Both the position numbers and the translations under genes were made by a program. 64,000 bases of DNA from positions 124,001 through 188,000 of the forward strand of contig WJXW01000010.1 in assembly GCA_015832175.1 (NCBI GenBank), in the 5' to 3' direction. Shown here piece by piece: positions 24,739-62,850 of the stretch. Each line of letters starts with the position of its first letter. The first letter of the stretch is position 1. Under the pieces are notes generated by a model, which was not told the DNA's origin, ran no database searches, and saw only the letters and a program-made list of their open reading frames with translations. This DNA is from Paraphaeosphaeria minitans. Taxonomy: Eukaryota > Ascomycota > Dothideomycetes > Pleosporales > Didymosphaeriaceae.

Positions 24739-27700
24739 CTACTCATCGTAGTGTAGGGTTAGGCTCGTCGGGATCTCTGCTTCTCTCGAGCTAGCATCGA
24801 GGAACTTCTTTATCTTGAGTTCTCCGACAGTGTGCTCAACAATTGTGAATACACCCTGCTTTCCAGGTGCGCGCCGCACATTCTTGAGCTTGAATATTTC
24901 TCTTAGCGTTGCCGTGAGTGAGGCGCCAACAAGTTCCTGGCCAAAGAAATGGTGTAAATCATGCCCGAAAAGCATGCTGTAGGCTTTCTTGGGGCGCCGA
25001 GGATTGATTTTCTCAGGCTCTGGGAATGCGACAGGGTCCATGGCGGCCCTTGAGGTTGCGATGAGGACAGTATGGCCAGCTGGGATGAAAATGGATCCAC
25101 GAGCGCCATCAACAATGGTCACATCGCGGGCTGTCACGCGCGGGAGACCAGGGATCGAGTTTGCGTGTCGGATGCCCTCGAGAACAAAGCCTAGCAATTC
25201 TTCATCAGATGCTACGTCATTCTTTTGTGCCAGCTGAATGATGCGTTGTCTGGACTCTTCGTACTCGGGACGCAGGTATAGATCGATCAAAAGCGATGCT
25301 TGCTGTGTAAGATTGCCGATGACAGGAGTACTGATTCTGATGCAGTCCGCGACAAGTTCCTCGATCTAGACTTCTTAATAATCAGTGCACGATACAGCGA
25401 GTGCATGACTTACAGGAAGTCTAGTATCGCTGAGGCCGTGATATAGACGATCCGCATGGGGACCTATTCTGTCAGAGTTGCAGTGACCCCGAGGGCGCAA
25501 TTTGTCAGGACTCACCAACTTCGAATGCACTGCCCTTAGCAAGCCAGTCGACAAAGTGTTCAACGGCCCCTGATTGCGTCCTAAGGTGGGCCTGAAAAAT
25601 CTTCTGTAGAGGCTCTGCCGCTTTCGTTGCAGCCTCGCGCAACCTCCACTCTTCTGCGGGACGGATGTTGAAGCTTTGGTACAAAAACAGCGTGAGAAAT
25701 GCAGTGAGCGTTTCATAAATGGACAGGACTCCTCTTGGCTGCTCTGTGGTTTTCAAAGGAATCGCAAAACGTTCCGCAATCCAGAGTACAGGTGCAATAT
25801 TCGTCACATCTCGAACTACGTCCAGTGCCCTTCGACCTTTGACCGTCGCGAGTGAGTTGTTCTGGATGAGCTTTTGGACTGTAGTGCTGAAGAAGGCAGC
25901 CACGTTTTGTTCGAAACCGTCCTCGAAAAGCAACTTACGCAAGCTTTTTGACCGTGGATCATGGCGTTTGGGATCATTCCATCCGATCAGAAACTCATTA
26001 CCGCCGGTTACGTTGTGCACAGCCGTTTGGTACATTGGGCGGAAAGTATCATGGTCTTCCAAAGCCTTTTTGCAGCCTTCATTTGTCTGGATACTGAGGA
26101 TCTCGCGGTCGCTCGGGGGTCGACTCATCTCATACAGGTGGAGGACGTCATTGCCCTTGAGGATTTCTCGAGCAGCGTCTGGCGTATAGAAGGGTAAGAG
26201 TGCGTAGGGAGAGGTTCCTGAGAATCCTCCAGGTAGGGCATTGAAAATCAGCCTCGAGAGCACCCCGCCGTACGAGCCCGCCGCCGGCTCCTGGAGCTTT
26301 GCAGCACCCCAATTAGTCAACGTATTACTGTTGAAGTCGTAACTCAGGAAGCGGTCACCTCGAACCAGAGACACAGCATCGTCAAGTATGCCGCGGCCCG
26401 TAGTCTGTCCGGGGCATACACCGCTGCCCGGCATAAGGGGCTTGGTGCATTCGGCCATAAGCCCGGGGTAGAGCTCCATATCCTCAATATCACCGTAGAG
26501 TAGCTCAGCTGCTCGAGCAACCGTAATGTCTGGATTCCAGTCCTCAAAGGTGTCGTACGGTTTAAGGTTCAGATAGCGACGGAACTCGTTCAGGGTGCAG
26601 ACGTTGAAAACATCGCGCGCCTGCAACTGGCCCATGATATCGACAATCTTCAGACTCTGGGGAGTACCGTGAGCCCCAAACGCATGTGCCGGCTCCTCGA
26701 TGCAGTCTTTGATGAGTTCGGCAAGCTCTCGGTCGTCAAATCGTCCATCAGGCCCGCGCTGCAGTCCTCCGAAGGTCCATTCCCTCGGTTCTTGATCCCT
26801 GAACCTTGATCCGTATTTCATCATCATCTCTCTATACATGCCCGGTGTGAGTTCTTGGATCGAGTTGATATCAGGGAATGCATTCGTGATGATGTCTTTC
26901 ATCCATTGGTCGTCCGCTGCGCTTAAAGCAGCGTGCCAATGATAGAGAACGGCAAACTCCACAGACACAAGGTTGCCAGTCCCACGCTCAACTCGTTTGC
27001 CGCGTTCCTTGATTTCTTTTCCAAGGGCTAGAGACCACTCAGAGTTAGCGCGGGGGGTATTCAGAATGGCTGCAACGTAATCGCGGAGTACAACCGAGGC
27101 AAAAAAGCCAACGTTGATGTTTCGCGTCAGTTGGAAGATGTCCTCGTCTTGCCTGCAGCAGCATTCCATCAGCTATTCGATTCTGTCATCACTTTGATAC
27201 TGCCTACCATTTCTTTCCTGCATCGTCGAGCTTGTTCCACGGCTTGTATTTGCCGCATTCGTTCACCGCGAAGAGGTTTTCCGCTACATGATTGTGATTG
27301 CGCGAGAAGAGCAGCATCACTGCGACAACTCCGGGGGGCATCATCATGATGCGATCGGACGCAATTGAATCTGGATATATCAACCCGTTCTCGTACGTGC
27401 GTACGTATTTCTGTTCCTTTTCGGTGTTGCCGTACAGGGTGCCGAGGTCCACATAGCTCGACGTCTCGTTGATCCACGGATCTGATCTTGACGTCTGGAA
27501 ACACTCGTGAATGACAACGGTAGCGAAGGAGAAGAACAGGCGGTTCAGGCCGGACGGGTGCTTTCGAAAAGGACCTTCACGTTTGAGTAGTGCCTATTGG
27601 TCAGTGTACACTTCCGACGAAGGAAGCCCCGGTCATACCTCGTACACGTCTTCGACGTTTGGCAGGTTCGGGCCCTTCGGCTTCAGGGGAGGTACTAGTA

Positions 27701-43331: not shown

Positions 43332-46300
43332 ATGTTTGGCTTTCTCGCGAACCGCTTCCAGAACCCGCGCGCGGGCGAACCGACCCGCCCGGGCTGGTTC
43401 GATCGCCACTGCACGCCCGTCCTGCTCTCCATTGCGAAGAAGGCCTGCACGCACCCCGTCCACACCATCGTCACCATCGCCTTCCTGGCCAGTTACTCGT
43501 ACCTAGGCGTACTCGACAAGGGCTTCCTCGAGCAAAATGACCCCACCCCGGGACAAGTCGATTTCTCCACCCTGTTGGCCGGCAGCAAGCGACTGAGGGT
43601 CGGCCAAGAAACGGCATGGAAGTGGGACACGGAAGAACACAGGCCAGCCAGTGTCGACAAGGTACGTGGGATGGTACTCGGTAGAGGTCTTCGCTGACAG
43701 AAAGCCACAGGCGCAGGAAACTGCCCTCGTTACCCTCGTCTTCCCCGCCTCGAGCGCCATCAACTCGGCGCCATCGCAGATCGCACTCCCCACCAATGTT
43801 TCCGCGACACTGCTCCCAAGCTCCTTCAACTCTTTCTCCACCATCTCACACGATACGTCTCTTGCATTTGCGATCCCCTATGCTGAGGCCGCCGACTTCC
43901 TCCTGGCCATGCAGGAGATCTCCGCCCCGAAAGATGCCTCCGAATCGCACGGCTCCCAGGCTGAAGGCACACTGGAGGAGAAGAAGTGGATCATGAAGGC
44001 TGCGAAGAGCGGACATGCTCCAGGCGGCATCCGCAACTGGGCCCACGATTCTTGGACGTCGTTTGTGGACCTCCTCAAGGTGTGTTTCCCTCCACTTGGC
44101 TGAAAATGCTGGAGTCTGTTTTGCTCACAACATACAGAATGCGGATACCGGTGACATCGTCATCATGGCCATGGGCTATCTGGCCATGCATCTGACTTTC
44201 GTCTCGCTCTTCCTCGCTATGCGCCGTTTGGGATCTAACTTCTGGCTCGCCACCGCCGTCCTTCTCCAGTCAGCATTCGCCTTCTTGTTCGGCCTCGCCG
44301 TGACCACCTATTTTGGCATTCCCATCAACATGGTCCTTCTCTCCGAAGGTCTTCCATTCTTGGTTGTCATAATCGGCTTCGAGAAGCCCATCGTTCTGAC
44401 CAAGGCTGTCCTGTCTGCCTCGTTGGATGCGCGGAGGAATGCCGAGGGACACCGTGGCGAACCACTTACCATTCAGTCGGCTGTGCAGAAGGCTATCAAG
44501 AAGACCGGATTTGATATCGTGCGCGATTACTTTTTCGAGATTCTGGTCCTTGTCGCTGGAGCCTTGTCGGGCATTCAGGGAGGATTGCGCCAGTTCTGCT
44601 TCCTCGCTGCTTGGATCTTGTTCTTCGATGCCGTCATGCTCTTGACATTTTTTACCGCTATCCTGACCATAAAGCTGGAGATCAACCGGATCAAGAGACA
44701 CGTCGCCCTTCGCCGCGCTCTGGAAGACGATGGCATCGCCCGTAGCGTGGCTGAGAATGTGGCTCTCAACAACGACTGGCCCACCGCTAGCGACGTGCTG
44801 TCCCGTTCTTCGACTACCACTATCCTCGGCAAGAAGATCACCGTCCCGAAGTTCAAGATTATCATGGTCGCTGGATTCTTCCTGGTCAACATCCTCAACG
44901 TCGCCACATTGAGATTTGGTCTGTCCCACAAATCTGCCCACATGTCCGGTGTCGGCGCTACAGCTCCTCTCGACCCTTTCAAAGTTGCTGGGAGTGGTTT
45001 GGACACTATCTTCGAGCACGCGAAGAAGGCCTCGATCTCCACGATCGTCACTGTCCTCATGCCGATCAAGTATGAGTTGGAGTACCCTTCGATCCATTAT
45101 GCTGAACCCAACCTCACCGATGACGAGGTGACTTTTGGTAACAACATCAGCACCCACTTTGTTGATGGCGTCTTGAAGAGCATGGAGGACCCTTTCCTGA
45201 GCAAGTGGATCATCGTGGCTCTCTTCTTGAGCGTTGTGATGAATGGCTACCTCTTCAACGCTGCGAGATGGACGATCAAGGAGCCCCACAAGCCTCTCGA
45301 ACCGCCTACTGCGGCCGAGATTCAGGACGGCACTCCGCCAACACCTGCCCCTGGTATCCCGCATCTGCATATGCCGACCCCACCGATCACTCCAGGCCCC
45401 GAGCAACAGGCAAACCGCGGAGTAATCCAGCCTTTAATCCCACAGCCCGCTCCGGTCCAGCGTCAGCTACATCAGCTTGAGACCGCCAAGGCCCCCACTG
45501 AAGAGGAACAAAAACAGCCCAACAGGCCTTTCGAGTTCTTGGAACAAGCTCTGAAAGAGAAGCGTGTGACCAGTCTCACTGACGAAGAGCTCATCGAACT
45601 TGCTGTCAGTGGTAAGCTCCCTGGTTATGCCCTGGAAAAGACCCTTGGCGACAAGACTCGTGCCGTGAAGGTTCGACGTGGCCTTGTATCCCGAACACAT
45701 GCAACCCGCGAGACTTCCACCCTGCTTGAACGATCTCTACTTCCGTATAAAGACTACAACTACGAACTGGTGCATGGTGCCTGCTGCGAGAACGTCGTCG
45801 GTTACCTTCCTCTGCCCGTTGGTGTGGCTGGACCTATTATGGTCGATGGTCAGAACTACTTCCTTCCTATGGCCACTACCGAAGGTGTCTTGGTCGCGTC
45901 TACTTCGCGTGGCTCCAAAGCGATCAATGCCGGTGGCGGTGCTACTACCGTTGTTACTCAGGACGGTATGACCCGTGGACCTTGTATCGGTTTTGAGAAC
46001 CTTGCTCGCGCCGGCGCTGCTAAGCTTTGGCTCGATTCAGAGGAGGGTCAGAGGACAATGAAGAACGCCTTCAACTCGACCTCCCGATTTGCTAGGCTGC
46101 AGTCGATGAAGACTGCTATCGCAGGTACGAATCTGTACGTGCGCTTCAAGACGACTACCGGTGACGCCATGGGTATGAATATGATCTCCAAGGGTGTGGA
46201 ACACGCTCTTACCGTTATGGCGAACGACTGCGGCTTTGACGACATGCGTGTTATCACCGTGTCTGGCAACTATTGCACCGACAAGAAGGCGGCCGCCATC

Positions 46301-46984
46301 AACTGGATCGATGGTCGCGGCAAGGGTGTCGTCGCTGAAGCAATCATTCCTGGCCATATCGTCAAGTCTGTGCTCAAGTGCGAGGTTGAAGACCTCGTGC
46401 AGATGAACATCTCGAAGAACTACATTGGTTCTGCCATGGCCGGTGCGCTGGGTGGTTTCAATGCCCACGCCGCCAACATCGTCGCTGCCATCTACCTGGC
46501 CACCGGACAAGATCCCGCGCAAGTTGTTGAATCCTCCAACTGCATAACAATCATGAACAAGTAAGCCATGACAAGATTTATCCCTACGAAACATGTACTA
46601 ATCGTGCGTAGCGTCAAGGGCAACCTCCAAATCTCTGTCTCCATGCCGTCAATAGAAGTGGGCACCATCGGAGGCGGCACGATCCTCGAGCCGCAATCCG
46701 CCATGCTCGATCTTCTGGGTGTCCGCGGAGCTCACCCAACCTCTCCCGGAGACAATGCACGACAATTAGCTCGCGTTATTGCCGCCGGTGTGCTTGCCGG
46801 TGAACTTTCTCTCAATGCCGCTTTGTGCGCTGGTCACCTCGTCAAGGCACATATGGCACACAATAGAAGCAACGTCGCCAGCCGTGCTGCTACACCTGCA
46901 CCATCCACTCCCGCCAACGGCAACATGATGCCAGTCACAAGCGCATTGACGGCAAGCTCCAGCGGACCCTTGCCTAAGCGGTAG
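43332..46984 (+). CDS. hmg1: 3-hydroxy-3-methylglutaryl-CoA reductase
   Basis: Four exons (43332-43661, 43711-44079, 44138-46560, 46612-46984) with 49-, 58- and 51-bp introns give 1164 residues. It makes mevalonate from HMG-CoA, the committed step of sterol and isoprenoid synthesis, in the ER membrane. An N-terminal membrane span ([18 protein letters not shown]) is followed by a lumenal loop, then the sterol-sensing domain (about residues 240-400, [20 protein letters not shown] and [16 protein letters not shown]). After a Pro-rich linker the catalytic domain shows [16 protein letters not shown], the TTEG glutamate, [31 protein letters not shown] and the late catalytic His ([11 protein letters not shown]). 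The last intron falls in TIMN-N-VKGN. The sterol-sensing domain implies sterol-controlled turnover. Confidence 0.97.
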
Positions 46985-48867: not shown

Positions 48868-50139
48868 GACGGGTTGGAGAGGAGGCGAGGGTACGGATAG
48901 GTATGGACGGAAGTATATACTATGAGCTACGTTGGAATGATATGAACTGCTTGCGCAGAAAAGTAGATACTGCCACAGGTTTGAGACATGTATACGCTCC
49001 ATCCGTTTCATCGTCATCGCTAATTGGCAGAATTAGGATAGACTGGTTTCGACACTACCTCTCCGTCGATACACTGTCGCGCCTCTTCAAAGTAGCCATC
49101 TCGACATATTTGCATGTTTTGAAATTATTGCGAGTGCAGCTTCTTTTCTCCAACCGCGACTCTCAACATCGCACCACATAGCTTGATTCCGCCAGGACAT
49201 CTCTCACCCATATCGACGACCATCTGCCACTTGTACCTGTCTCCATGAAACACCGCCTAAATGCACCGCTTCCAGTCAGAATCCCCCGTCTCAAAATCAA
49301 GGTCCACGCAAGTCTATATGGGACCGCGCCTTCCCCTGTCGCCCAGAACGCTAATGTTTGATCTAATGAAACCTTCATTGCAGACACGTTCATGCGTTTT
49401 TCGCCATGCATAAAGAAGGCGTCTCATAGAGCACCTGTCAAACACGTGGGACGTGTCTCACGTCCCGAATAATCTCGGCTAATTCTATTTCAAACAAGAC
49501 ACCCGGCACAGCGCGACCCAAACACGATCCGGAGCAACCATTCATTCAAGAAATACTTTCGAATTAGGCCAATTGATCTGTTCCTCAGGGTTGCGATGTG
49601 TGCAAGGTTGGGATAGTGAGTCGAAGAAAGAGTGGGAGGGCATGGGGGTGATACACTTTCTGGGCTTCGACTTGTACGAGGGAAATGAGAAGACCATTTG
49701 GCAGCTGTTCTTCCTCGGTCGCGAGTGGATACACCCCTCTTATGCAGAAGATGGGCGAGGTGTTCAGGCTGAGGCGCAGCTCTGATGGGCCACTGGAAAA
49801 GACTTGATAAGTATCCGTGGCTTTCTCGTCATTATGAAGCCCAACCGCAGTCGCTCCTTTGCATTTGTGGCTGTTTTCTGGAGAAGTCGTTGTTCATGGA
49901 CTCGTAAAGCTCCGCCTCATTCGTTTATTCATTATCGTACTGTGCGACTACGTTCGTTATTACTATTGCAACACGACACTCATTGATACGGTATTGGCGC
50001 AACACGACATTCATTAGCATTCTCGCGACACGACGTCAGCTATTATTCCGAGCACTACACTCATTTATTATCAACGCAGTCGACCAAACGCTCATTTCCT
50101 ACGCTTTACACATTCTTTCCGAAGCTCAGATCATCCACC
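48868..50139. other. Intergenic, no gene seen
   Basis: Only short frames. At 49960-50070 an irregular repetition of (A)ACACGACA(C/T)TCATT occurs in the promoter region of the next gene. Confidence 0.4.
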
Positions 50140-51309
50140 ATGCGCCACTCAACAATACTCTCGCTCTTTTCTACGCTCGTCACCCTAACTCACGCCCAAA
50201 CGACCGAATCCCTCGTCGTAACTGCCGCCCAAATCGCCCAATCCATAAAACTCTCTCTCCCAAACCCCAGCCTCGCCCTCGTGCCACAGCCCTACTACTG
50301 GTGGCAATCCGGCATCGTCAACAACGCCCTCTTCACCTACGGCTTCGTCACCGGCGACAGGCAGTTCGAGGACCTCGCAAAAAACACGCTATACAACCAG
50401 GCCACAGGCGCAAACGATTTCATGATGCCCGAAGCCACCGGCAACGACGATCAGGCATGGTGGGCACTTTCTGCGTTGACTGCCGCCGAGAACAACGTTG
50501 CCGTACCAGCAGGCAGTCCAACGTTCCTATCCATGGCCCAGAACGTCTTCAACGAGCAGAAAGCGAGATGGGACGAGAGCTCCTGCGGCGGGGGCATGCG
50601 GTTTAAGATCAACGCCGGAGACGCGGGCTACGAGTACAAATCCTCCATCGCGAACGGCCTCTTCTTCCAGCTCGCAGCACGCCTTGCCAAACTCACCGGC
50701 GACGCGGACGCCCGGGCTTGGGCCGAGAAAAGCTACGACTGGATCACAGCCACGGGACTCGTCGATGCCGAGTACAACGTGTACGACGGGACGGATGCGG
50801 CGGGCGCGTGCGTGGACCTGAATCGCAACCAGTGGAGCTACAACGCAGGCGTGTTCCTGTACGGCGCGGCGGTCATGGCGAGCCAGACGGGCGATGCGAA
50901 GTGGGTCGATCGAAGCAGCGGCCTGCTCGCGGCCGCGCAGAGAACCTTTGTGCGCGACGGGGCGCTGTATGAACCTACCTGCGAGGACCAGGGGAACTGC
51001 AACAACGACCAGGTCAGCTTCAAGGGGATTCTGGCGCGCTGGTTGGGTGCGACGGCTGTGGAGCTGCCTGCATTGAAAGACTCTATCGCGGGGACGGTGG
51101 GAGATGTTTCGGGGCGAGTGCAGAAGAGCTGGGCGCCATCGTTGGGGCCGATGGAGCAATTTGTTGCACTTGAGAGTGTGGATGCGGCAGTGAGGGCGAA
51201 CGGGGGTGTGGCGGCAGCGTATGGGATGATTTCTCCTAGGGGGAGCATGGATGGGGTGGAGAGGAGGGTGAGGCGGAGTGTGGCTGGCAGGATCCTGTGG
51301 GACGCTTAG
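50140..51309 (+). CDS. GH76 family endo-1,6-alpha-mannosidase-like protein (Dcw1/Dfg5 type)
   Basis: A single exon of 389 residues. Signal peptide MRHSTILSLFSTLVTLTHAQ. The GH76 core shows YYWWQSGIVNNALFTYGFVT, then FMMPEATGNDDQAWWALSAL with the paired catalytic Asp103-Asp104, then CGGGMRF, YKSSIANGLFFQLAARLAKL and WSYNAGVFLYGAAVM. The family cleaves alpha-1,6-mannan or moves GPI mannoproteins from the membrane to wall glucan. Unlike Dcw1/Dfg5, the C-terminus (VRRSVAGRILWDA) has no hydrophobic GPI signal, so this copy is probably a soluble secreted enzyme. Confidence 0.92.
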   Translation: MRHSTILSLFSTLVTLTHAQTTESLVVTAAQIAQSIKLSLPNPSLALVPQPYYWWQSGIVNNALFTYGFVTGDRQFEDLAKNTLYNQATGANDFMMPEATGNDDQAWWALSALTAAENNVAVPAGSPTFLSMAQNVFNEQKARWDESSCGGGMRFKINAGDAGYEYKSSIANGLFFQLAARLAKLTGDADARAWAEKSYDWITATGLVDAEYNVYDGTDAAGACVDLNRNQWSYNAGVFLYGAAVMASQTGDAKWVDRSSGLLAAAQRTFVRDGALYEPTCEDQGNCNNDQVSFKGILARWLGATAVELPALKDSIAGTVGDVSGRVQKSWAPSLGPMEQFVALESVDAAVRANGGVAAAYGMISPRGSMDGVERRVRRSVAGRILWDA

Positions 51310-55308: not shown

Positions 55309-58300
55309 CTAGTCAAGCCATATCTTTCTCCTTCCCTCTTTCGCAATCGCTCGCCAAACTTCCTCTGACATGCCCTGGAACTGAACCGAGCCTACCCTCC
55401 GGAACAATGAACTTTCATCTCCTTCATTCCCTGTCACGTAGCGCAAAGATGTCCTAAGAGTAGCCACAAGTACTCGAATATCTGTTGTGCGATCCACCAG
55501 AGACTTCCCCTGGCCGTATGGTGGGTCTGGCCATGATTGGTCCGGCGAGCGTGCAACAACCTCCTGAAGAAGTGCTTTGAAAGCTTTGTTCTGCGGTGCT
55601 TTGTACGTTGCCAAAGGTGTAAGGAGAAGACCGATGCCGGAGTAGCTCAAGGGAGAGGAATTGCGCATCTCATGCCGGGCGGTCTTCGTGGACCGGATAT
55701 CATTTTTAGATCCACTATTATGAGATGGTATTACCGGTCGGCTTCCATCTGCCGACATGGCAGTTGCCGCAAGGATGAGGAAGAATGAGGGTGGTGGATC
55801 GGTACCAGCAGTTCCAGGGATATCTTCATCAAGAAAGATGGTGAAATTCCCAGCCAATTCTTGCTGACCATTTCCAAGTATGTCGAGAATAAGAGAAGGG
55901 GAGGGGCTTTTTTGAAGACACTGTATTCGTGCAACATACCCTGACAATGCCATAGGGATTCTCTCCAACTCTGGCTCATTGTCTTTAGCCTCGAAGTGGC
56001 TTTCGAACGTGATCGCGCCTCCGGCGTGGTTCTCAACAACATACTGCCTGGCTGTTGAAAGGCGACTACGAGCAACGATCGGTCCTTTCATCGATGCCCA
56101 TGACCAGCTAGGATATCGACTTTGCAGCTCCGGTAATCTACCGTCGCTTGCAGACACCACGCCATACGAGTGCCATGCAAGTTGCTCCTCCAGGTTAGAT
56201 TCCCACAAGCCACCGCCATACCTTTCTCCCAGGACATCGCGTACCAGCTTGGCTATACTCCATATTGCGACTGATTTGTCGCCTTGGTCGGTGAGATTGC
56301 AAGATGTGTAACTCAGCAACGCAGAGCGCCAGAAGTTTTCTATGGAGTCATCGTTCGCCCCAATGACGGGCACGTCATATTTTTGCGGGGTATCGAACAA
56401 CATTCGCTGCATGCGACCCCGCCAATTTCGGTCGGTGGATGCTTTCGCATCTAAGGAATGAGGAAGTCCTCGAGGAAGAGCTTCACAAGCGCTCAGTGTG
56501 CTACAGTCCCAAAATATCTGGGAATCTGCAAAGTGCAGGATACGAGGCGAAAGCATGCGTTCTAGTACCGTCAGAAAGTCATACTGACCAGAATGCCACT
56601 TTAAATAGCCAAGAAAGCTTCAATAATAGACGGTGCTTACAATACGCTTTCAATTGAAAGCACACCAGCTTACATAGTAGGAAAATTACGCACCTTGAAA
56701 CACCCATCCCCTGGTGTAGATTTTGGTGGCAAGCAGCTTTTTACCCCACAGATCGTCTTCCAGGATTCTCCATGTACCGCGTGGTAGTTTGCCAGTCCCA
56801 TCGGCCTCGATGCGCATGGGTAAGATGTTCGTTGGGTTGCGCTGCCGGAACAATCCACCCTCTGAATCTGAGGAGTCTGCGACGGCAATGTTGCAGTGCG
56901 AGTGGCGGTACACTTTGTGCATGAGCTGACCTTCACTCTTGAAGTCTCCTCCTGGACCTTGCTTCGTACGGTCAGTATAGGGGGCGTGGGCGATTATGCT
57001 CTAATACATACCATGATGCATAATGAATCAATCCAGATGTAGCGTATTCCAATGAACTTCGCCACCGAGATGGCCTGTTGGAAGTTCGTAGTAAGCTTAG
57101 AAATCCCCACACCTTGGCCCATAAGCTCGATTTCATTTTCCCGTCTGAGCTGTAGGAAGGTGGGTGGTCCCCATGAATGGCTAAGAGTCAGGTAAGGGCC
57201 CGTGATATTCTTCTTCGCCGTGTTGACGATCCGCACCATGTTGGTGTTTTCCATTCCCAGATCCACGAGACGGGTAGGAACAAAATTCGATTTTCGATGG
57301 TTGTTACAATTTTCATGAGTCTCAGCACAATTCTTTATCCACTCCCGGATTTGCAAGCCACCTCCAAGTTCGTTCGGATTCGTGGAGAATGCAAGCGTCC
57401 CTTCGGCAGCAACATGAGCGTCTACATCAGATACTATGTGATACTTTCCGGGATGTAGTAACCTGGTCAATGTCTCTTTTACATTGGCCTGGGGTGTGAA
57501 AATAATCTGAAAAGAAGAATTGCAATTTTGCGAGCGACCAGTGCTTCGAAGCGCCCATTTATAGCGACAGTCCTTGAATGAAGAGGGCACCAGTTCCGGG
57601 AGGCGGTGTACTGCTTTGACGCCATGCAGATACAAGTCCGTGCAGATAACGCATCCACTGATCAGTGAATTTAGTACTGCTTCGTCGGATGTGTGATGGC
57701 TACCAGCAGGGTCGTTGCTGTTGAATACATGCTCCTGGCAGACCTTACACAGGGTTACTGCTGGTGCAATATGTTCTTGTGTCTCAATAACACCGCTTTG
57801 AATTGGCAAGGCTCCAGTGCGTTCGGAAAGCCCCTTCGGCTCGTTCGTACGAGGTACTGTCGTGCTACTGCGTAGCTTCGTGTTCATCGTTGAAGAGCGC
57901 GAATAGTATGCACTATCATGACTAGAGCCCGTAGCGTCCATATAATCCTCATTCTCAAACTCATCCGACATTGTTGGAGGAGAGGTAGTCGAGGGCGCTA
58001 TATTCCATGGTCTGGTCGCCTCAGCATGAGGCGGGTCTCTCTCAGGAGATAATCTCGCATTTGCTTTGTACAAAGTCTCGTTGTAATCTTCCTTCGCATA
58101 CAGTTTGAACATCTTGTTAAAGCATGCGACATATAGGTCGTCCTCGTAGGGTTGTAAGACAAGCAACCCGTTCGCTGCAGTAATGACATCTTCCAGGCTT
58201 CTGGTGGGGTGAAGGACGAGATGGGGTGACGAGTTTTGCGCCTGTCGTAGTATTTTTGCCAGATCGGCGGCCTTCATCCCGTAACCTTGTGAATCTTCGT

Positions 58301-59436
58301 ACTGTGCAACCGAAGCAACGGCCATCACACCTAGATCGCGATCCACCGGGTCACTGTGCATGAGACAATCAATTTCCGCATCAAAGAAGGCAACGACACT
58401 GCGTGGAAGCCGGTCCCTTAGCATCTGATCATCGGGAATATCAACCACTGCCAATATGTCATCGATCGCAAGCTTCGCAAGATTTACGTTGCCGCCAACC
58501 CTCGCTGAGATATCTGCCGCACGTTGCTTGGCAGTCTGCGTGTTGACATTAGAGTACATTTCAAGTTCATGGGCAATGAACTCATTCATTGCGGACCGAG
58601 GCGTTTTTGTCACATCGATATCGATGCGACTGTAGGGTTCCGATAGAGCAAATTTGTGTTCTTCATTCGTACAGAGTACACCGGTTTCTTTGCAATCGCA
58701 GCAGTATTGTGGCCCGTTGTCGCCGCAATCTTGGCACTTCCAATACAAGTTGAGGTGGCTTTGATGACAGCGATCACAGGTAATATTGTAATTTTCAGGT
58801 CGTTTATAGGGTGGACTGCGCCGAGTCACAAGGAGTGATATATTGGAAAAGCCTGGATCCTTGAGTTCGTGATCAATCAACATGCATGTGGCCATGTCTA
58901 ATGTGTCGTAGCCGTCGAAGATAATGAAGCTGTGTTCATTATCGGTCAACTGCTGATGTAGTGCTGCCCGGATACGCTTGCGTCTCTCAGTCGATGCCTG
59001 GCCGGTCCGAAGGGCGCTCTCATAAGCATGAGATGGTCTACTGCAGACTTGTTCGTACAAGTAAAAAAGAAAATCCTCAACGAATGCCGCATGATGGCCC
59101 GAAACACGCTCCTTGATGTGGATATACGCTACAAAGATGCCTTGACTGTCATGACGCTGTTTCAGATCCTGCACGACTCGTAACGCAAAGGTTGACTATG
59201 AATTATTAGACTAAGAAATTGTACACATGCTGAGACTTTACCTTGCCACATCCCGGACCACCATAGCAATGGAGTTGCCATGGCTTGTAGCCTGCGGCCC
59301 ATTTAACGTACCGTTCATCCTCTAGAAAACCGCTGACTAACGGTTCAAATACGTCGACCGGAAGCTTGTTGCTCGAAGTTAGAGAGGGATGTAGCAGGTG
59401 GGTGCTGCCGGCTGTTGGAGCGAACGGGTCGGCCAT
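55309..59436 (-). CDS. NACHT-type P-loop / ZZ zinc finger / HET domain fusion protein (NLR-like)
   Basis: Four exons (59242-59436, 57012-59195, 56694-56961, 55309-56561; introns 46, 50 and 132 bp) give 1299 residues. Start ATG at 59436 (MADPFAPTAGSTHLLHPSLT). Order: Walker A GGPGCGK-ST at residues 59-67, split by intron 1; Walker B-like FIIFDGYDTLD at about 155-165; LLVTRRS; a ZZ-type finger at about 205-245 (CDRCHQSHLNLYWKCQDC, CCDC); a helical region; a Ser/Thr-rich linker at about 455-520; a second Cys-pair segment (LCKVCQ, SGCVICTDLY); then the HET domain (PYLTLSHSWGPPTFL at about 732-746, YIWIDSLCIM-QGPGGDF, VYRHSHCNIAVADSSDSEGG, TRGWVFQ-ERMLSPR). The family governs heterokaryon incompatibility cell death. 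HET lies C-terminal, opposite to HET-E/HET-D. Exon 2 alone spans ATPase, ZZ and the start of HET, so the fusion is real in the DNA. Confidence 0.88.
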
Positions 59437-60080: not shown

Positions 60081-62850
60081 ATGTCTGTCTTTCACCGCTG
60101 TGTGTTGGTGTTCGGAGTGTTGAGCGGATTTGTGTCGGCTGCGCCCGCCGCCTCGGAGACGCTAATCTCGCCTCCTACGCCAACGGAAGCGCCTGATGTT
60201 GCCAGCACGGCATGTGGAGACATCATCGTCTCCAAAGAACAAGGTCCGTCGTCGCAATCCTACGTTTCATTCTATGCATCTAACCTGCAGCAGGACAGAC
60301 TCTTTTCTGGGCCTCAGACTTGTTCGAGTGCTTGTCAAGTGTTCCATTCATTCCCGATGTAGCCTCTCGTTTCATCAACTATTACAATCAAACGCTGCAG
60401 TTCCAGAGCACGCTCGCGTTCTTACGAGATCCTCCCGAAGGCTACCAGCAACCTCCTGTCGATGTCGTTGCTGAGCTAGTCCTGTTACAAGAGAAAGTCG
60501 CGGAAGGAAAATACATCACGCAGTATGCTTTCGAAGCTGATCTACAGCTCCTGATCAACCGCATTCATGATTCACATGTATACCTGAGTGCAGGACTGCT
60601 GGCACCTTTTACTTTTATCTCACCATTTCCTCTTGTATCGGCCTCCCGCGATGGGAAGGAATTACCAACTGTCTACTTCCAACAAGAGGTCGTTGATAGT
60701 CAAGCCGAGGGTTGGGAACCATCACCCATCGTCAAGATTAACGAAATCGATGCGGTGGAATACCTGACGTCTTTCTCTGAGCTTAATTCCGAGGGGTATA
60801 TTGAACCACACGCCGACTGGAATTCTCTCTTCGAGCACCCAGCACTTGGTAAGGAACAGCGCCCCTCCCCCTCAAATATCGAAAGCGACGTGCTAACTTG
60901 CGTTTGCTTGCAGACATCCAGAACTACCAGAGTGTTCTACACTCAGCCATCTTCTACCCCGGTGATGCCATCAACTACACCCAAGCCAACGGTACGGTCA
61001 CGTCCTCATACTGGCTGGTTTCCTACAGTGAGGCTGGCCACACTGGCCCCTTGACAACTGCTGGCGACTTCTACAACTACTTCGTACTAGGACTCCTTCC
61101 CGATAGTTGGAATGCTTCAAATCCCCAGTGGTGGCCGACGTGGGAAGGAGACAATGGCGACTCTGGAGACGATAGCAACGAACAAGGGCCCTCTCAAGCG
61201 GTTCGCAATTGTAAAATCGGCAACCCTAAGAATGCCAGCTGGTGCGTAGAGTCCAACGGGGCTTATCCCAATGATCCGGACTACGCACAAAAGGAACTCA
61301 GCCGGTTGAAAGGCGGAGTAGTAACGGGGTATTTCCTGGACGACGGTACGGGCGTGCTCAGCATACCCAGTTTTCTCCAGCAAGGAAAAGACTTGCTCAA
61401 CTTCTTCGATATCATCGACCAGTTCCTCGTCAACGCTGCGAAAAAGAACACCACAAGAGTGATCATCGATCTCCAGCAGAACTATGGCGGGCTAAAGCTG
61501 CTTGCTGTATCTGCATTCAAGCGCTTCTTCTACGATCAAGAACCCTGGACAGGCAGCCGCATTCGTACAACTGATATGTCTCATACTTTGGGAGAGAGCT
61601 ACTCCTCCTGGTGGAGTGGCCTTGAGACTGGAGACGATGGCGCGCTTGATCCCAACTACCGATATTTCGCTTCAAGCGAATGGGTCGTGGGAAACAGGAT
61701 TAATCCTAAAACAGGAGCGAACTATAGCAACTGGGATGAGTACGAAGGCCCTGTCTCCTACCGGGGTGGGGCGTTCTCAAATTTGCAGCTCTATAATCTC
61801 TCTGACCAGGTGTTCGATGCTGCCGGTTTCCAAGGTTGGATCCCTTATGGTTATGGCGGAGAGAAACCCAACCCGCCACCACCATCCTGGGCGCCAAATA
61901 GCATCGCCCTCCTCACCGACGGCCTTTGCACTTCTGCCTGTGCAGTTTTCGTGGAGCTTATGGCGGAACAGGCAGGCGTGAAGACTGTCGTTGTGGGTGG
62001 TCGCCCTGCTACTGGTCCCATGCAAACCGCATCCGGTAGCCGTGGCGCCCGTCTGTACTCCTCCGAGGCACTTGATTACGACTTCAGCAATGTCAATTAT
62101 ACCCTAGAGAATTTTGAAGCCTACGCGAGACTCCCACAGCGCGATAACAACGACCTCTTCATCAACTTTGCTGGCTTCAATATCCGCGACCAGATCCGCG
62201 AAGGGGACAAAGATGCCATTCCGGTGCAGTTCAAGTACGATGCAGCTGAATGCAGAGTTTATTACACGCTCAAAAATATCTACAACCTTGAGCAACTTTG
62301 GAAAGACGTCGCTGCCGCAGCCTGGGATGATCCATCTCTATGTGTTGAGGGGTCCACGGGTTACTCAGAACGTCATAATGCCACCGAAGCTAAGACTCCA
62401 CCCAAACGCACCGCACAAGCGCCAAATATGAGCCTGGATCACATAACCTTTTCCGACCTTGCCTCCAATATCTCCGGGTCTCCCTCCCTGTACGATGTTA
62501 TTCAGAAAGACTCCGTCTCTACGACGGATCTCAAACAGTGCTTCGATACAAACGCATCCACAGACTGCAAGGGCACGACTCTACAATGTAGATCGTTTCC
62601 TGTGGACTGCAATGGCGACGGAAGTGTATTCAAGGAAATGAGTGCGTGTCTCCAAGACACGACCAATTTCGCAGGCGCTTGCGGCGACAACATGTTTTTC
62701 CAGCCGACGACTGATGCTGACTCGAAGAAGAACTTGCCAAAGAAGAATGGCGTCAATGTGCCTTATCAACCGGTCATTGTTACGGACGGCTATTGTGTAC
62801 CTTACTACGTTGACACGGTCAAATACGGCCTGGGTTGTCCACGGCAATGA
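60081..62850 (+). CDS. Secreted S41 family peptidase (CPAF-like)
   Basis: Three exons (60081-60243, 60294-60848, 60914-62850) with 50- and 65-bp introns give 884 residues. Signal peptide MSVFHRCVLVFGVLSGFVSA. The N-terminal region reads ACGDIIVSKEQ-GQTLFWASDLFECLSSVPF once intron 1 is removed, then INYYNQTLQFQSTLAFLRDP, as in fungal S41/CPAF-like proteins. The catalytic part contains TTRVIIDLQQNYGG and the nucleophile segment ALLTDGLCTSACAVFVELMA, where Ser of TSAC is the likely nucleophile, followed by TVVVGGRPATGPMQ. The C-terminus is Cys-rich (QCRSFPVDCNGDG, GACGDN, GYCVPYY). Related fungal enzymes include UstP-type peptidases of ribosomally made peptide clusters, but no precursor-peptide gene is seen here. 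It is probably a secreted or secretory-pathway protease. Confidence 0.9.

Follow-up and report, generated by a model that had tools for sequence, protein, structure and literature searches.

In published descriptions, effector domains lie N-terminally to the nucleotide-binding oligomerization domain (NOD), and sensor domains lie C-terminally to it (PMC10197012; PMC4986451; PMC9815663). In the HNWD family of Podospora anserina (HET-E, HET-D, and HET-R), HET is followed by NACHT and then by WD40 repeats (PMC4986451), and a case from Aspergillus nidulans in which a NACHT domain precedes a HET-s/LopB domain was reported in 2005 (PMC1325252). HET is reported to suffice for inducing cell death in fungi (PMC10197012; PMC12881547); PMC10890737 describes its way of killing as unknown, hydrolase activity on NAD+ is mentioned in PMC12881547, and the killing mode of HET, along with unannotated flanking sequences, is named a gap of the field in PMC10197012. 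Here, we describe a gene of Paraphaeosphaeria minitans (Pleosporales, Didymosphaeriaceae) that encodes a NACHT-type ATPase at the N-terminus and a HET domain at the C-terminus. It lies on the minus strand at 55309-59436 of the window, that is, the whole analyzed stretch of 64,000 nucleotides (contig WJXW01000010.1, positions 124,001 to 188,000). A HET-last NACHT protein or family was not found in the open literature searched, bioRxiv preprints, most subscription papers, figures, and supplements being outside its scope. PMC4986451 groups all C-terminal annotations apart from WD, TPR, and ANK under the label REST, and HET-last NACHT proteins could hide in that group.

Gene Structure and Domain Order

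The domain order from the N- to the C-terminus is a NACHT/NPHP3_N ATPase, a ZZ-like finger, a helical/winged-helix-like arm, a disordered linker of about 95 aa, and an entire HET-only-type protein. The features are as follows.

55309-59436, minus strand: complete gene, four exons, protein product of 1299 aa
59242..59436, minus strand: exon 1, residues 1-65, start codon through Walker A, last residues GGPGCGK
59196..59241, minus strand: intron 1, 46 nt, interrupts Walker A between GK and ST
57012..59195, minus strand: exon 2, residues 66-793, one open frame with the NACHT remainder, finger, arm, linker, Cys-pair segment, and HET start
58818..59195, minus strand: NACHT/NPHP3_N ATPase past Walker A, residues 66-191, with FIIFDGYDTLD (taken as Walker B) and LLVTRR (taken as sensor-1-like)
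58635..58805, minus strand: ZZ-like zinc finger, residues 196-252, approximate bounds, ZZ above the cut-off in relatives P0078 and P0096
58041..58538, minus strand: helical/winged-helix-like arm, residues 285-450, approximate bounds
57756..58040, minus strand: disordered linker, residues 451-545, approximate bounds, contains SPPTMSDEF and DSAYYS
57216..57755, minus strand: Cys-pair segment of HET-only proteins (CxxC...CxxC), residues 546-725, approximate bounds
57012..57215, minus strand: HET domain, first part, residues 726-793
56962..57011, minus strand: intron 2, 50 nt
56694..56961, minus strand: exon 3, HET domain remainder
56562..56693, minus strand: intron 3, 132 nt
55309..56561, minus strand: exon 4, post-HET segment, C-terminal domain, and stop codon

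The initial annotation, made from the letters of the window, had described exon 2 as running without a stop from the P-loop region into HET, and this holds: the exon comprises 728 codons within a stop-to-stop frame of 733 codons, and the ATPase/HET junction lies inside it. Frames that long are expected about 1e-14 times by base composition alone (six frames, 64 kb); a frame of this length is hardly a product of chance, and the ATPase and HET parts are read as one gene, not two. The in-frame splice joins that it had proposed at Walker A (GCGK/ST) and in HET (CIM/QGPGG, WVFQ/ERML) were likewise confirmed, all three introns being GT..AG, and an independent NCBI model of the same length exists (PMIN03_008399, P0001, Paraphaeosphaeria minitans; 1299 aa, eight substitutions relative to the window protein). 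The N-terminus encoded by exon 1 is identical in P0001, and the start MxDPF is common to P0003, P0006, and P0007. The gene model of P0003 has additional residues exactly at the intron 1 site (GCGKVKAYQKTWWLS), and P0005, P0009, and P0013 span most of exon 2 and stop just past the same CIM/CIV position.

Both homologies on which the reversed order depends exceed the Pfam cut-offs. NPHP3_N matches residues 37-189 (E 3.1e-11, 44.2 bits against a cut-off of 24.8) and NACHT residues 58-191 (E 1.3e-6, 28.8 bits against 26.7), and the protein has the nucleotide-binding domain with Walker A and Walker B of signal transduction ATPases with numerous domains (STAND) and NOD-like receptors (NLRs). The motif DG[YFLH]D of Walker B is present in all 41 fused proteins with an ATPase match, whereas Walker A is seen in 14 of the 56 fused proteins described below; many of the other 42, which were not examined singly, start past Walker A, and P0003 reads through the intron. 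HET matches residues 733-883 along the full length of PF06985 (profile positions 1-146 of 146, E 9.3e-27, 94.6 bits against 22.5), which places this part in the HET domain family. Only 36 residues precede the NPHP3_N match and HET is C-terminal, so that the N-terminal effector of a fungal NLR is absent. The catalytic Glu is not strictly retained. In a check of the HET part for a TIR fold, made on a model of relative P0018 too weak for a conclusion (mean pLDDT, i.e., predicted local distance difference test, 51.0), no TIR chain was among the 50 matches listed per search.

The finger, designated ZZ in the initial annotation, is only partly recognized as such. It has seven Cys, each retained in 41-43 of the 43 fused proteins with a matched finger, and we take this pattern to be that of a ZZ finger plus one added Cys; the Pfam ZZ profile exceeds its cut-off of 21.4 bits in two Alternaria relatives (P0078, 25.1 bits; P0096, 28.4 bits) and is not matched in the other five of the seven scanned. 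In the window protein itself, however, PF00569 gave no match in a Pfam scan to E 10, and the window locus is not among the matches of a genome-wide PF00569 search. The ATPase and the finger do precede HET, as had been noted, but so does the arm. A structural second look listed Cdc6/ORC, archaeal ATPase, and plant NLR chains (RPP1, plant resistosome, NRC4) for the exon 2 model, and SAMD9, CED-4, NRC3, and NRC4, amid other winged helices, for the P0018 arm. With Foldseek alone, neither the exon 2 model nor the P0018 model had a match at E<=0.001. The linker is predicted to be disordered (pLDDT <50 at exon 2 residues 385-479). As had been observed earlier, WD40, ankyrin, and TPR repeats are absent from the Pfam matches of the window protein to E 10, a scan in which HMMER filters discard most matches above about 0.1, and repeats as a hidden sensor were rejected on this ground.

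Conservation of the Domain Order

Three homology searches listed 139 proteins (one search gave the best 120 of 701 matches), which form a sample of the nearest relatives, so that proportions among them are not frequencies in nature. Together with the window protein, these 140 proteins were scored by eight module profiles made from at most 15 aligned family members. HET was matched in 134 out of 140 and the arm in 56 out of these 134, and the arm precedes HET in all 56 arm-bearing proteins, the window protein included, with zero violations of the module order in the collected set. The ATPase, finger, arm, Cys segment, HET, and post-HET segment are all present in 33 of these 56 fused proteins. 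Thus, the order with the ATPase first and HET last, claimed for a single gene and confirmed by Pfam, is shared by its relatives, as the search suggested earlier was meant to establish; given this conservation, a refutation by two separate genes is unlikely. Judged by sequence, we see here a real and so far uncharacterized variant of a known receptor type.

Of the fused proteins other than the window protein, 27 are models with NCBI names, and 28 come from jgi, lgn, or ena, sources that were taken as metagenomes. The named hosts belong to Paraphaeosphaeria, Didymosphaeria, Westerdykella, Melanomma, Ampelomyces, Phaeosphaeria, Lophiotrema, Periconia, Corynespora, Clohesyomyces, Alternaria, Parastagonospora, Ascochyta, and Paraphoma; the taxonomy of five host species was checked, all five being Pleosporales, and the remaining genera are presumably Pleosporales as well. 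All 23 matches of a search with the first 460 residues also bear HET according to precomputed Pfam domains; this search detects only proteins of 0.55-1.75 times the query length with shared exact words, and other designs may escape it. Public database entries are mostly named HET-domain-containing or hypothetical protein.

The halves of the protein are conserved to different degrees. In relatives P0006 to P0053, HET is 51-62% identical to that of the window protein, and HET with the post-HET segment 51-64%, against 23-49% for NACHT and the arm and 11-30% for the linker. By this measure, the presumed effector (HET) end is the constrained end.

HET-Region Tree

The tree of the HET region holds 118 rows; for 16 of the 134 HET-bearing proteins, no region of the required length was available, and these were left out. 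By the scoring used, the fused proteins do not form a single clade: 13 changes of the label are required, and 13 are forced by the starred branches. One supported branch (99/98) splits 64 rows (53 without the arm, ten counted as truncated, and one with the arm, P0113) from 54 rows (41 with the arm, seven truncated, and six without it), and thus parts 41 of the 42 fused rows from 63 rows in which no arm was seen. Thirteen rows in which no arm was seen lie on the fused side; six are named partial (P0029, P0040, P0048, P0050, P0056, P0071), P0030 begins within the linker, and six have no explanation (P0027, P0055, P0061, P0063, P0081, P0111). Our reading is a single origin of the fusion, with most label changes attributed to truncated models, although the tree test itself gives 13 changes. 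As the root is unplaced and P0027 sits on a very long branch, gain and loss are indistinguishable.

Two rows call for separate mention. P0113 from Cucurbitaria berberidis, named tol protein, has the arm before HET, yet clusters with HET-only proteins; it may represent what is left of an ancestral fusion, or else a second fusion event. P0061 from Pyrenophora seminiperda, named arginase and carrying Pfam arginase and HET domains, clusters with the fused proteins and is probably a merged gene model.

HET and NACHT Genes in the Same Genome

A profile search of the P. minitans genome listed 76 HET and 32 NPHP3_N matches. Nine other HET/NPHP3_N pairs lie within 5 kb, all nine on the same strand with HET upstream; eight of them are spaced by 806-938 bp center to center, as the classic order predicts, and the ninth, with a spacing of 3166 bp, could be two genes. 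Two of the HET-first NACHT pairs (G000:C19:554109-555203 and G000:C29:3157-4251, G000 denoting this genome) have equal scores and spacing and may stem from a recent duplication or be duplicated in the assembly. The window gene is absent from the NPHP3_N list, which is expected if intron 1 inside Walker A breaks the match, and other genes of this genome with a split Walker A may be missed likewise. Elsewhere in the genome, the ATPase-finger-arm module has two weak matches and no close one, and among the other HET matches, the one closest to the C-terminal half shows 35% identity.

The finger, proposed earlier as part of this design, is indeed present in it but is not private to it. Locus L017 (G000:C1:1005500-1013500; gene at about 1007-1010 kb) encodes a NACHT/NPHP3_N, winged-helix (Pfam GPIID_WHD), and ankyrin protein with a finger C-terminal to the ankyrin repeats, and the weak match to the finger on C1 falls in this gene. 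Over 46 aa, its finger shares 37% identity with the one in the window protein; it scores 20.1 bits for ZZ, slightly below the cut-off of 21.4. At least one further NLR-like gene therefore carries a ZZ-like finger, located in that gene at the sensor end.

Neighboring Genes

A gene on the plus strand at about 60081-62850, with CPAF-like PDZ and Peptidase S41 domains, lies head to head with the HET gene at about 640 bp from its start; a shared promoter region is possible, the start codon of the neighbor being our reading. Other genes of the window are ordinary: an HMG-CoA reductase with a sterol-sensing domain (43997-46561, plus strand), an animal-type haem peroxidase (25508-27172, minus strand), and a family 76 glycosyl hydrolase (49987-51306, plus strand).

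Discussion

We propose that this single protein is a STAND/NLR-type switch with the effector at the unusual end, HET occupying the usual position of sensor repeats, a reading that we consider about equally likely to be right or wrong. At rest, the NACHT ATPase and the winged-helix-like arm would keep the protein off. Upon sensing of a ligand, for which the ZZ-like finger between the ATPase and the arm is the likeliest sensing or docking surface, the ATPase/arm platform would oligomerize in an ATP-driven manner. The flexible linker would tether this platform to the HET-only-type protein, and HET parts gathered in many copies could then cause cell death or a related immune response. The position of the L017 finger at the usual sensor end, after the ankyrin repeats, is counted in favor of this switch. 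A more specific proposal, which we put forward tentatively as possible but short of probable, is a distinct conserved STAND class of Pleosporales in which HET replaces the sensor repeats, the finger is the sensor, and activation proceeds by clustering or by release through a degradable linker. If so, fungi would have a counterpart of those NLRs whose effector is C-terminal, fungal NLRs would have no fixed arrangement of parts, and a conserved gene with separable halves would offer a ready way to test the activation of HET by oligomerization.

Similarly to NLRP1, an NLR with a C-terminal effector, the N-terminal module might instead inhibit the HET part until linker cutting or phosphorylation-dependent degradation frees it. 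The predicted disorder of the linker agrees with such a release, as does the motif DS[AG]Y[YFG]S, considered with DSGxxS-type degrons in mind, which 19 of the 56 fused proteins carry between the arm and HET and at no other position, and which none of the 78 armless HET proteins has. However, it is missing from the other 37 fused proteins, there is no known cleavage site or E3 ligase, and the contrast is partly built in, since many of the 78 armless proteins start at the Cys segment and have no linker; we regard release of this kind as unlikely. It is also doubtful that the gene is a conserved non-immune regulator of stress or development: the death activity of HET reported for other proteins speaks against it, while the order and sequence retained across Pleosporales genera, the lack of a second close copy of the N-terminal module in the genome, and the difference of only eight out of 1299 residues between two sequences would all suit such a role. 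HET might also be bait, an integrated HET-only copy monitored by the ATPase, as it follows the arm, the usual site of repeats, and armless relatives exist, Pleosporales included. Still, HET and the post-HET segment are the most conserved parts (51-64% against 23-49% for NACHT/arm), which a constrained effector fits better, and the Pfam scan found no other known effector domain in the window protein, making bait quite improbable.

The window protein shares HET and NACHT domains with HET-E, HET-D, and HET-R (PMC4986451), so that a het locus governing vegetative incompatibility in P. minitans has to be considered; given that the Pfam scan found no repeats able to diversify, and that the two compared sequences differ by eight substitutions with no divergent block, we think this very improbable. 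Some database models do look merged, e.g., P0061 with its arginase name and its HET domain, but in the window gene the junction is within a single open exon, and the same order recurs in 55 relatives, from both NCBI-named models and jgi, lgn, or ena proteins. These two observations rule out the joining of two neighboring genes by the model for practical purposes, and the chance that we leave to it is negligible.

Comparison With Known Systems

The window protein resembles the HNWD family in uniting a HET death domain and a NACHT-type ATPase on one chain, but it is NACHT-first and HET-last, with no repeats found, instead of HET-NACHT-WD40, and is not classed as an HNWD member. With fungal NACHT/NPHP3_N-ankyrin NLRs, L017 among them, it shares NPHP3_N and the ZZ-like finger, and its winged-helix-like arm may correspond to their winged helix, whereas L017 has ankyrin repeats and bears the finger after them, and neither of its two scanned frames has a HET match. 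HET-only proteins of Pleosporales, Colletotrichum, and others, some named TOL by depositors, correspond to the entire C-terminal half from the same Cys-pair segment onwards, which starts at residue 8 or earlier in 50 of the 78 armless proteins (some of them partial models); the initial annotation had seen a complete protein of this kind, with its own Cys-pair segment, behind the ATPase, and the comparison supports it. The HET-only proteins differ in that no arm was found in them, and most lie on the 64-row side of the branch 99/98 in the tree of 118 rows. The Aspergillus nidulans protein carries a different domain, HET-s/LopB, and one member is reported in the cited passage, but it has in common with the window protein a NACHT domain placed N-terminally to a fungal domain associated with cell death.
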